A stretch of 23,780 nt of DNA, from the IMG/VR virus record IMGVR_UViG_3300027963_003159, positions 1 to 23,780 of that record; one strand, given 5' to 3'. Under the pieces are notes generated by a model, which saw nothing but the letters and a program-made list of their open reading frames with translations, was not told where the DNA came from and did not search any database. Below, piece after piece: positions 21,090-23,780 of the stretch. Every line of letters starts with the position of its first letter. The first letter of the stretch is position 1. Made by a program: the position numbers and the translations under genes. The DNA is from a virus.

Positions 21090-21284
21090 TTATCGCTCGC
21101 TAATGGTCGCCAGCTGCGAGCGGTCGTGCAGTAGCGCGGCCTCTTGCTCTTCGGCGTACGCTTCGACCTCGTCCAGCTGGACCATCGCCGCGACGATGGC
21201 TTGCACGTGAGCGATCCGGCGGTCCTGCGCGTACTTCTGGCGGAGCGCCTCGAGGCGCTGGCGCAGGGCGCCGGATGGGATCAT
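21090..21284 (-). CDS. 64-residue protein at the end of the recombination operon
   Basis: This leftward gene encodes 64 residues (MIPSGALRQRLEALRQKYAQ, then an acidic helical half rich in Glu and Ala, ending LATISER). The start at 21284 is chosen because it overlaps the stop of the Gp157-family gene (ATGA), the spacing used repeatedly in this genome. An ATG two codons earlier at 21290 is possible. It is probably a coiled-coil or helical-bundle protein. It is the last gene of the leftward operon, so a role in replication or recombination is inferred, but no family is recognised. Confidence 0.6.
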   Translation of the reverse strand: MIPSGALRQRLEALRQKYAQDRRIAHVQAIVAAMVQLDEVEAYAEEQEAALLHDRSQLATISER

Positions 21285-21784
21285 CGCCATCGGACACCAC
21301 GCTTGCTCTCCAGGTGGAACCCTTCGGGAAGCTCTTGCCCCGCCTTCGCGGCCTTCAGGGCGGCGGCGCGGTCGGGCTCTACCTTGACCCTACGCCACGT
21401 CTCGGGCCATGCGGACACATCCTCAGGGCCGACAATGGACTGAGTCTCAGCGAGCCACGCCGAATAGGTGGGGGCCTTCACCTTCGGCTCCTCGCCCATC
21501 GCCTCGCGAGCCAGCAGAAGCCCCGTGGCCAGCGCCTTCACGTGCTCGGAGACGTTCTCGCACGTCTTCCGCTTGGCGCGGAGGGCCTTCTCCTCGCGCT
21601 CGAGCAGCTCCGCTTCCGCTTCCATGCGCCTTACCAGGTGCATGCAGGCGAGGACCTTATCCTCGCTCTGCTCGATCCACGTCGAGAGGAACGCCGCGGT
21701 CTCCTCGCTCAGGAGGCCCGAGTTCTCTTCGATCTCCATCTGCACGCGGGCAGCGCCGCGCATGAGGTCGTACGTCGTCGTCAT
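21281..21784 (-). CDS. Siphovirus Gp157-family protein
   Basis: This 167-residue protein matches the layout of the Gp157 family of phage proteins. The N-terminal half is a long coiled coil (EAEAELLEREEKALRAKR, EHVKALATGLLLAREAMG). A conserved short-strand region follows (KVKAPTYSAWLAETQS), and then the block RRVKVEPDRAAALKAAKAGQ, typical of the family's VKPEPDKxAIKKAxKxG pattern, ending in a basic tail. The family was named from Streptococcus thermophilus phages and linked to altered phage sensitivity, but its molecular role is not firmly known. It often lies beside recombination genes, as here after erf. AGGAG lies 5 bases before the start. Confidence 0.88.
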   Translation of the reverse strand: MTTTYDLMRGAARVQMEIEENSGLLSEETAAFLSTWIEQSEDKVLACMHLVRRMEAEAELLEREEKALRAKRKTCENVSEHVKALATGLLLAREAMGEEPKVKAPTYSAWLAETQSIVGPEDVSAWPETWRRVKVEPDRAAALKAAKAGQELPEGFHLESKRGVRWR

Positions 21785-21792
21785 GTGTACTC

Positions 21793-22521
21793 CTAGAACG
21801 GAAAGCCGGGGCCGTCTTCATCGGTGGGCGGAGGCGGGGCATCGAGGAGGGGGCCGCGCGTCTGCGGGACAGGCCCGCGGGGCTTCTCCCCGTACTTCCA
21901 GATGACGCCCTGGCAGTTCTTGTCCTTGCACTTGAAGTCGGGTGCCTTCGGGTTTGTCTTCTTCTCCCGATTGTCCCACATCGAGCCCGAGCACGTAGGG
22001 CACGACGGGTCGATGCCCGAGGCCACCGGCCCGATGCGCTCGACGCTCTCGACACGCCCACCGAAGGCGTCGGCGACACGTTGGGCCTGCACCGGGGCAC
22101 GCTGGGGCGGGGCCTGCGTGGGGGCGTGTTGCGCCGCCTGCCCATCGTCGTCCTCGGGGGCGACCCCGACCGCGGCCGCAAGCGCATATCGACGCAGGTA
22201 GGTCACAACCGACCCCACGGCGGCGGGGCTCTGGTCGCGGGGGAGGGCCGCGCAGACCGAGGCGATGTGCTGACCGCTCTTGTGGAGCAGGATGGTCGTG
22301 ACGGTCGCGCTCCCGTCCTCGAGGCGACCCGGGTGCTGGGAGACGCTGAGGCCATTCGCCGACAGGGCGGCGCGGCAGGCGTCCCACACGCTCGACAGGT
22401 CGGCGTAGCTCGACTTAAACGCCGGGTTCGTGCGGTCCTTGACCGCGCCTTGAATCGAGCCCTGCGCGATGGCGAGGGCGGTAGCGAGCTGATCCAGCTC
22501 GGGAGACTGAGAGAGGATCAT
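21793..22521 (-). CDS. erf: ERF family single-strand annealing protein
   Basis: This 242-residue protein belongs to the ERF family, which anneals complementary single strands during phage recombination. The core (about 9-125) contains NPAFKSSYADLSSVW (32-46) and GSVVTYLRRYALAAAVGV (103-120) followed by EDDDGQ (123-128), the family signature. A Gln/Pro/Ala-rich linker follows. A zinc-ribbon-like set of cysteines is seen at C174, C177, C198 and C203. The C terminus is acidic and ends DEDGPGFPF, like the tip of SSB proteins. The start at 22521 overlaps the stop of the upstream gene (ATGA) and has GGAG upstream; a longer in-frame start at 22611 would overlap that gene extensively. Confidence 0.92.
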   Translation of the reverse strand: MILSQSPELDQLATALAIAQGSIQGAVKDRTNPAFKSSYADLSSVWDACRAALSANGLSVSQHPGRLEDGSATVTTILLHKSGQHIASVCAALPRDQSPAAVGSVVTYLRRYALAAAVGVAPEDDDGQAAQHAPTQAPPQRAPVQAQRVADAFGGRVESVERIGPVASGIDPSCPTCSGSMWDNREKKTNPKAPDFKCKDKNCQGVIWKYGEKPRGPVPQTRGPLLDAPPPPTDEDGPGFPF

Positions 22522-22754
22522 CGGCTGAACTCCGGTGCGATGACGGTCACGCCCGAGGACGTCGTGTGGGTGATGGTCCCGCGGAGGGAGGGAGACGGGT
22601 TCCAGTCCCACCCAAGCATCGTTGCTCCCTTGGGCGGGCGGTTGAGGGTCACGCTCGCGCGGCCCTCATTGTAGGCGACGTACGCGATGTCTTCGGCGTG
22701 GTGCTGGAGGAGGAACGTGAGGAGGTTTGCCAGGGGAAGCGCGTGGTGACTCAT
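22518..22754 (-). CDS. 78-residue protein, first gene of the recombination operon
   Basis: This leftward gene encodes 78 residues. The first 30 are His- and Leu-rich and probably helical (MSHHALPLANLLTFLLQHHA), and the rest is strand-rich (YVAYNEGRASVTLNRPPKG, ITHTTSSGVTVIAPEF). No known motif is seen. It is the first gene of the leftward operon, directly facing the XRE gene across the control region, and its stop overlaps the erf start. The ribosome binding site is weak (GGGG immediately before the ATG). Its function is unknown; the location suggests early expression together with recombination genes. Confidence 0.6.
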   Translation of the reverse strand: MSHHALPLANLLTFLLQHHAEDIAYVAYNEGRASVTLNRPPKGATMLGWDWNPSPSLRGTITHTTSSGVTVIAPEFSR

Positions 22755-22766
22755 GCCCCATAACTA

Positions 22767-22777
22767 GCAAGCCTTGC
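22767..22777. promoter_or_regulatory. short palindrome in the divergent control region
   Basis: GCAAGCCTTGC is an 11-base palindrome (arms GCAAG and CTTGC with a central C). It partly overlaps the proposed rightward -35 element. It could be a weak second operator, but it differs in sequence from the larger palindrome at 22789-22804. Confidence 0.4.
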
Positions 22778-22800
22778 GATACGCGCAACTGCACTATAGT
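22774..22800 (+). promoter_or_regulatory. candidate rightward promoter of the XRE operon
   Basis: TTGCGA (22774-22779) and TATAGT (22795-22800) are separated by 15 bases and match sigma-70 -35 and -10 boxes in 4 and 5 of 6 positions. Initiation 6-8 bases after the -10 would fall at about 22806-22808, directly before the ATG at 22809. The spacer is shorter than ideal, which is common for regulated promoters. Confidence 0.6.
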
Positions 22801-22804
22801 GCAG
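22789..22804. promoter_or_regulatory. perfect 16-base palindrome, candidate operator
   Basis: CTGCACTATAGTGCAG is a perfect inverted repeat. It covers the TATAGT -10 box of the rightward promoter and, being symmetric, also reads TATAGT on the opposite strand. It lies 5 bases before the start of the XRE-type regulator, the natural candidate to bind it as a dimer. Confidence 0.72.
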
Positions 22805-22808
22805 GCTC

Positions 22809-23030
22809 ATGCAGTACCACACCCTCGGCACCCTGATCCGACTCCACCGGGAGCACCTCGAGATGTCGCGCGCGGAGCTGGCCCGACAGATCGGCGTGCA
22901 CCCGTCGCAGCTCACGCGCTGGGAAGCAGGCGACCACAAACCCTCCCTGTCAGCGATGGTCGCCCTGGGCAAGGCCCTCGATGTCGACGCGGTGGAGCTC
23001 ATGAGCGCCGCCGCCGTGGATGCGCGATGA
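22809..23030 (+). CDS. XRE-type helix-turn-helix regulator
   Basis: This 73-residue protein is a single XRE/Cro-cI-type DNA-binding domain. The helix-turn-helix is SRAELARQIGVHPSQLTRWE (20-39), followed by AGDHKPSLSAMVALGKALDV, the usual GxxxPS turn and fourth helix. There is no separate dimerisation or peptidase domain, so it resembles Cro or the C proteins of restriction-modification systems more than a full cI repressor. A perfect palindrome over its own -10 box suggests autoregulation. No ribosome binding site is seen before ATG 22809, and the likely transcription start lies within about 3 bases of it. Its stop overlaps the start of the next gene. Confidence 0.88.
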   Translation: MQYHTLGTLIRLHREHLEMSRAELARQIGVHPSQLTRWEAGDHKPSLSAMVALGKALDVDAVELMSAAAVDAR

Positions 23031-23233
23031 GCCGCACCGTCATTCCTTGGAACGCGCTCCCCGCGCAGCTCCCCGTGCAGACTACCGCCGTGGTCTACCT
23101 GTTGCTCCAGCACTTCGACGCGCCGGGATGGGTGCGTGGCGTGGTCGGGACGTTGCTTGCGCTCTTGTGGGCGGGGTCCATCATCCGCATGTGGAACCAG
23201 AAGGCGAAGCCGTTGCCGGGGTACGGCGAATGA
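23027..23233 (+). CDS. small membrane protein, function unknown
   Basis: This gene encodes 68 residues with a short hydrophobic stretch at about 16-30 (PVQTTAVVYLLLQHF) and a stronger segment at about 36-54 (VRGVVGTLLALLWAGSIIR), followed by a basic tail (MWNQKAKPLPGYGE). It is coupled on both sides: its ATG overlaps the XRE gene's stop, and its own stop overlaps the RusA gene's ATG. A membrane protein between a regulator and a recombination nuclease is unexpected. Possible roles are a superinfection-exclusion protein or a small holin-like protein, but there is no direct evidence for either. Confidence 0.65.
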   Translation: MSRTVIPWNALPAQLPVQTTAVVYLLLQHFDAPGWVRGVVGTLLALLWAGSIIRMWNQKAKPLPGYGE

Positions 23234-23658
23234 CCGCCGACTACACCATCGGCTTGGTCCCCCGCGGGGCCTCACGTCCTCGGGCAGCTCGAGGAGGTGG
23301 GCGCGTCTACATGCCTCCCGAGCACCGCGCGTGGATGGACGCCGCGGTCACCATGCTGCGAGAGCAGCGCCAGGGGGAGGCCATCGCCGGCCCCGTGGCC
23401 ATTGAGATCGTGGCCATCTGGCCGATGCCCAAGGCGCGTCCCGCTTGGTGCGACCGTGAGCGGTGGAAACGCCGGCAGGAGACGCTGGGCATCCCCTACG
23501 CCACGAAGCCCGACCTAGACAACGTCGGGAAGATCGTGCTCGACGCCCTAGTCGAAGCAGGCATCCTCGCGGACGATCGCTTCGTGGTAGACTTCAACAT
23601 CAGCAAGCGGGCCGTGCCCGAGGCAGGCCGCATCGACGTGTGGGTGACCTCCCTCTAG
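23230..23658 (+). CDS. rusA: RusA-type Holliday junction resolvase
   Basis: This 142-residue protein belongs to the RusA endodeoxyribonuclease family, which cuts Holliday junctions during phage recombination and DNA processing. The signature KPDLDNVGKIVLDAL (93-107) holds the catalytic aspartates D95 and D97 and the lysine K101. It is followed by ILADDRFVVDF, in which D115 or D116 supplies the third acidic residue. A final strand region (GRIDVWVTSL) is as expected. The length is close to that of E. coli RusA (120), with a somewhat longer N terminus. The start at 23230 overlaps the previous stop (ATGA). Together with the leftward erf gene it gives the phage its own recombination set. Confidence 0.9.
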   Translation: MTADYTIGLVPRGASRPRAARGGGRVYMPPEHRAWMDAAVTMLREQRQGEAIAGPVAIEIVAIWPMPKARPAWCDRERWKRRQETLGIPYATKPDLDNVGKIVLDALVEAGILADDRFVVDFNISKRAVPEAGRIDVWVTSL

Positions 23659-23711
23659 AAAGTTCACGCGTCCCCCTTGCGCGCTTCACACGATATGGGT
23701 AATCCTAGGTC

Positions 23712-23727
23712 GTCGTCACCTGACGAC
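23712..23727 (+). promoter_or_regulatory. hairpin directly before a ribosome binding site
   Basis: GTCGTC (23712-23717) pairs with GACGAC (23722-23727) around the 4-base loop ACCT. AGGAGG starts at the next base (23728-23733). The hairpin does not cover the site itself but could influence access to it. The 80-base gap around it has no other clear feature; no good promoter was found. Confidence 0.4.
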
Positions 23728-23738
23728 AGGAGGACCCA

Positions 23739-23780
23739 ATGAGCCTGTACGACACCCTTCGCTGCCTCTACTACGACCCG
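23739..23780 (+). CDS. start of a phage protein cut by the window edge
   Basis: Only the first 14 codons are inside the window (MSLYDTLRCLYYDP). AGGAGG at 23728-23733, 5 bases before ATG 23739, makes this a convincing start. The opening resembles a common type of small phage protein beginning M(G/S)LYDTxRCEYPLP, whose function is not known to me, but 14 residues are too few for a firm assignment. Confidence 0.55.
   Translation, partial: MSLYDTLRCLYYDP

Follow-up and report, generated by a model that had tools for sequence, protein, structure and literature searches.

How is a small repressor gene controlled when it stands back to back with a recombination operon across a gap of 54 bp? The question is raised by a 23.8-kb viral contig, IMGVR_UViG_3300027963_003159 (23,780 nt, 67% GC), the whole of which is the window analysed here, and which belongs to a family of small environmental phages. 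The gap, at 22755-22808, parts a minus-strand operon encoding a 78-aa protein, an ERF annealing protein, a Gp157/Gam-like protein and a 66-aa protein from a plus-strand unit encoding a 73-aa XRE protein, a 68-aa hydrophobic protein and RusA (Table 1). The true start of the ERF gene may be 22521. The 78-aa protein has no matches in Pfam, PHROG or NCBIfam, though it is present in all relatives in the clade. A near-identity search with the record gave no match among named phages, and searches with the terminase, capsid and ERF proteins, which returned only distant matches, did not identify the host.

Table 1. Genes and putative control elements around the divergent XRE/ERF gap
Feature	Position	Strand	Evidence
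Gp157 / Mu Gam-like protein	21281-21784	-	Pfam/PHROG-type profile matches
ERF single-strand annealing protein	21793-22611	-	Pfam ERF 3.3e-23, phrog_2324 2.5e-36
78-aa protein, first gene in ERF operon	22518-22754	-	conserved in 11 related contigs
Candidate 78-aa/ERF operon promoter TTGCGC-N16-TAGTTA	22761-22788	-	conserved block
Dyad TTGCG-N5-CGCAA, proposed weaker operator	22774-22788		arms invariant, centre variable
XRE promoter TTGCGA-N15-TATAGT (predicted)	22774-22800	+	highest matrix score in window
Perfect 16-bp palindrome CTGCACTATAGTGCAG over XRE -10, proposed as main operator of XRE	22789-22804		13 of 16 columns invariant, 11 non-identical contigs
73-aa single-domain XRE/HTH_3 protein	22809-23030	+	Pfam HTH_3 1.2e-13
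68-aa hydrophobic protein	23027-23233	+	ATGA overlap with XRE gene
RusA-like Holliday junction resolvase	23230-23658	+	Pfam RusA 2.8e-21

The interval between the XRE and RusA genes is a variable slot. It holds nothing in L006, where the 68-aa gene is missing and RusA directly follows XRE with an ATGA overlap; it measures ~200-310 bp in the window, L007, L018 and L020, and ~1.1-1.2 kb in L003, L005 and L014. Past RusA, at 23660-23742, we also observe a third conserved promoter-like block, CTTGCGCGCTTCRCACGATATGGGTA, with TTGCG again at a -35-like place. This block is followed by a short hairpin, GTCGTCACCTGACGAC, immediately 5' of a strong SD; the L014 counterpart, CCGTCGCTTCGACGG, carries paired changes, and the hairpin may be a translational control element.

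The first-pass annotation described a perfect 16-base palindrome covering the TATAGT -10 box of the XRE gene, and the sequence bears this out, with TATAGT at 22795-22800. The palindrome by itself proves nothing, because about one such element is expected in the record by chance (1.07 palindromes of at least 16 bp per window in first-order Markov simulations, 2 observed); the chance of finding one inside the 54-bp gap is p ~0.001 under a first-order Markov model. The second perfect 16-bp palindrome, AGCGCCTCGAGGCGCT at 21244-21259, lies within the 66-aa gene and is probably a product of chance in GC-rich coding DNA. It is comparative conservation, not palindrome statistics over the whole record, that settles that the putative site in the gap exceeds chance. 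CTGCACTATAGTGCAG is single in the record even when up to two mismatches are allowed. A search in related phages, which the annotation had proposed, recovers it once per record in 9 of 9 relatives at the same tolerance, and in phages carrying it the palindrome always adjoins XRE. In the viral collection there are 11 exact matches, 9 of them within this phage family; for the other two, in L093 and L094, an XRE homologue could not be detected, and these matches are probably fortuitous. A role of the palindrome as an RNA hairpin was rejected, the site being upstream of the predicted transcript, and Rfam gave no match.

The XRE and ERF proteins led to 11 further contigs, two of them showing no differences across the gap. 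Gap identity averages 89% among the 11 non-identical sequences, a lower bound given that an extra base in L020 was left unaligned, versus 59% and 58% at the four-fold sites of the XRE and 78-aa genes, respectively; only 5 of 21 four-fold columns of XRE are invariant. The principal runs of invariant bases lie at 22773-22778, 22784-22798 and 22800-22802. The promoter spacer bases 22784-22794 are invariant, and none of them is required by sigma-70. In particular, bases 22789-22794 are invariant although sigma-70 makes no base-specific demand there, which points to a bound protein. The prediction of an operator over the -10 box together with a leaderless start is well supported by sequence comparison.

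The XRE promoter scores 8.6 with an E. coli sigma-70 matrix, the best value on both strands of the window (99th percentile of random 60-mers, 5.5), a matrix that may not suit the host; a strict promoter scan passed over this promoter because its spacer is 15 nt. With the -10 hexamer ending at -7, position +1 would be 22807, giving a 2-nt leader, in line with the earlier prediction of a start within about 3 bases of the ATG at 22809. The claim that no ribosome binding site is visible also stands, with anti-SD pairing of just -2.6 kcal/mol for XRE, compared to about -6 to -12 kcal/mol for most other genes in the record. Most of the other weak-SD genes overlap an upstream gene; XRE is the first in its unit. 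The codons preceding the XRE ATG are CTC, AGG, TGC and TAG, and since the in-frame TAG lies within the -10 box, there is no earlier in-frame start. An internal start at M19 was rejected as well, this residue being Ile in L008. The distance from the -10 box to the ATG is 8 nt in every relative, although bases 22803-22807 vary. The fixed spacing, the blocked earlier start and the near-nil SD, taken together, make it likely that the XRE mRNA is leaderless or nearly so.

The picture of one palindrome and one leaderless gene is largely supported but too narrow: the data point to a pair of adjoining dyads and, probably, to a leaderless start of both divergent genes. The second dyad, TTGCG-N5-CGCAA, abuts the palindrome, and each arm supplies a candidate -35 box for one of the two divergent promoters. 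The inner pair of this dyad is A-T in L018 and L015, C-G in L014 and L020, and unpaired in the other members; the L014/L020 dyad reads TTGCGCTAAGCGCAA, and a half-site YTGCRCT is common to the dyad and the palindrome. A genome-collection pattern scan with the TTGCG repeat gave, among the matches listed, only scattered ones in unrelated bacteria. On the ERF side, the candidate promoter is followed by 6 nt and then by the ATG of the 78-aa gene at 22754. With the E. coli matrix, which may not suit the host, its score is close to the background level. The 78-aa gene likewise has an in-frame TAG inside its -10 box, and this side probably starts leaderless too. L020 keeps the 6-nt gap to the 78-aa ATG, with TAGGGT, and in the distant relative L038 TAGTTA is found 17 nt from a good TTGACG, as is TACTTA in L042. 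A possible third dyad, GCAAGSCTTGC, lies at 22767-22777 and is broken in L020.

The XRE gene product was annotated as a single-domain protein, and this assignment holds: the 73 residues match HTH_3 (PF01381) with 51.3 bits against a cut-off of 23, the only HTH_3 match in the whole record, and AlphaFold2 predicts a five-helix Cro/C1 fold (pLDDT 91). The folds closest to the model are those of P22 c2, C.BclI, C.AhdI and 434 Cro, of which P22 c2, 434 Cro and C.AhdI are dimeric operator binders. The P22 c2 N-terminal domain and 434 Cro are the nearest to XRE in solved sequence and folds, but identity is ~30% and the operator sequence differs. P22 c2 has a further C-terminal domain. A profile search with XRE detected no clear member outside the clade (one weak partial match, L314), and phage tblastn found only generic repressors with <40% identity.

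Within the clade, the recognition helix, SQ[LV]TRWEAG, is invariant. More distant relatives, with ERF ~43-55% identical, keep the XRE/ERF divergence; they have an SD (GGAG) before XRE, lack CTGCACTATAGTGCAG, and carry SAIKAYENG and similar sequences in place of the clade helix. Upstream of ERF, in L021-L042, the predicted promoters face each other, each strand having a TTGAC box at its outer side, with overlapping -10s and an abundance of dyads; this is a textbook bidirectional arrangement. Operator and recognition helix change together in this comparison. Against this, L014 (TATACTGCCG) and L003 (TATAGTGCGA) have a palindrome with a damaged right half, yet the helix shows no matching change. 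The proximity of gene and site, the invariant helix where the operator is kept and the lack of the operator in relatives with another helix suggest that the XRE protein itself binds the palindrome. Given that the distant relatives are SD-led and use another promoter, the predicted leaderless layout is special to this clade.

We consider it reasonably likely that an XRE dimer represses its own leaderless transcript via the palindrome, and probably acts at the weaker dyad and on the ERF/Gp157 operon as well. A dimer of the 73-residue protein would sit on the palindrome, across the -10 box of its own gene, and bar RNA polymerase from that box, resulting in negative autoregulation as the protein accumulates. 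XRE would probably also bind the abutting TTGCG-N5-CGCAA, more weakly, and the -35s of the two divergent promoters would lie under the occupied dyad, probably limiting the ERF/Gp157 operon. Transcription on either side would begin at the AUG or no more than ~2 nt from it, so that neither message would need an SD. In this scheme, the sequence elements with their conservation and spacing and the order of the genes are observed and the protein fold is predicted, while we infer XRE binding, the start points, and the sign and targets of regulation. The proposed setting in a recombination switch agrees with the neighbours ERF, Gp157 and RusA; a lysis/lysogeny switch is unsupported, because the neighbourhood of the gap yielded neither an integrase or resolvase nor another XRE-type (CI-like) gene. 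In 10 records, which are possibly incomplete, no tyrosine integrase or resolvase was detected.

The two abutting dyads, the weak -35, the predicted leaderless start and the C.AhdI/C.BclI-like fold of XRE would all fit a loop of the C-protein kind as well. In such a loop XRE would first bind the upstream dyad and switch on its own poor promoter, with its 15-nt spacer and weak -35, and at higher level would fill the palindrome and repress. Leaderless autoregulated transcripts are indeed known for C proteins of restriction-modification systems, as previously noted for this locus: the C transcript of C.Csp231I, with two CTAAG-n5-CTTAG boxes, is leaderless (PMC4824078), and so is that of C.AhdI (PMC5333194). 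Like these, XRE is a single-domain protein of similar size and fold, with a predicted leaderless mRNA and arm-N5-arm dyads in the promoter; two tandem dyads are present upstream of the gene, as in C proteins, and both might be XRE sites. However, we regard such a loop as unlikely. Of the two dyads the downstream one looks stronger, whereas the loop would call for the opposite, and the centre of the upstream dyad lies ~26 bp 5' of the start, in the interval from -35 to -10, a usual repressing position. Unlike in the C-protein systems, the dyads abut and overlie the -35/-10 elements, and activation by XRE is hypothetical. XRE also fails as a member of the C proteins by context, its neighbours being ERF, Gp157 and RusA, with no restriction or methyltransferase gene among them.

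TATAGT is present on both strands of the palindrome, and the minus-strand combination GTGGTA-N16-TATAGT scores 6.7; the palindrome could accordingly be a symmetric -10 that fires both ways, leaving the ERF operon with a leader of ~32 nt and only XRE leaderless. Promoters of this kind are common in bacteria (PMC10268837), and the distant clade has its face-to-face promoters with overlapping -10s. Nevertheless, this is improbable: the symmetry reaches several bases past the -10 hexamers, the minus-strand -35 falls inside the XRE reading frame and is not retained in L018/L020, this reading gives no account of the conserved TAGTTAT that immediately precedes the 78-aa gene, and the ERF leader would have no usable SD. 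Least probable of all is that the palindrome is a site for a host repressor such as LexA, with the switch answering DNA damage and XRE acting elsewhere: recombination genes are plausible SOS clients and TGCACTATAGTGCA resembles a putative Fibrobacter-type LexA motif, TGCNCN4GTGCA, but this motif was not found in the literature searched, there is a single site per phage, always adjoining XRE, and the site of a host factor ought to be present in the relatives with another XRE as well, which are without it.

Autorepression by XRE therefore has to be compared with the phage switches proper. In PY54, the cI and cro mRNAs both begin at the AUG, and the binding site of Cro is a 16-bp palindrome (PMC4488713). 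The present locus shares with that system a small HTH repressor, a single 16-bp palindromic operator, divergent genes and predicted AUG starts. By contrast, the target of Cro in PY54 is cI and apparently not its own gene, and the gap there is 116 bp, whereas here the palindrome overlies the regulator's own -10 box in a 54-bp gap and the opposite operon encodes ERF instead of CI. The lambda cI mRNA transcribed from PRM is the other precedent for a leaderless autoregulated repressor message (also cited in PMC4488713), but the two-domain CI, three operators and lysogeny of lambda are not seen here. Membership in the lambdoid CI/Cro type fails on the partner repressor, the opposite gene encoding the 78-aa protein and the record containing only one HTH_3 match.

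Each element of the proposed switch is already known, and the switch is a neat new example of a kind familiar from lambda-type phages and restriction systems; in the literature, we found no description of this combination with ERF/RusA divergence. A bolder interpretation, to which we give limited credence, is that two leaderless promoters paired within 54 bp, their -35s fused in one operator, would allow a single 73-residue protein to time ERF annealing versus RusA resolution with no CI partner, as a minimal recombination timer. The locus offers a small, testable switch in which natural variation assigns nearly every base of the control region, and the leaderless clade stands beside SD-led sister clades with the same gene order, so that the loss of leaders can be studied. 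The arrangement suggests that the ERF-type recombination genes of small phages may be under direct Cro-like control.
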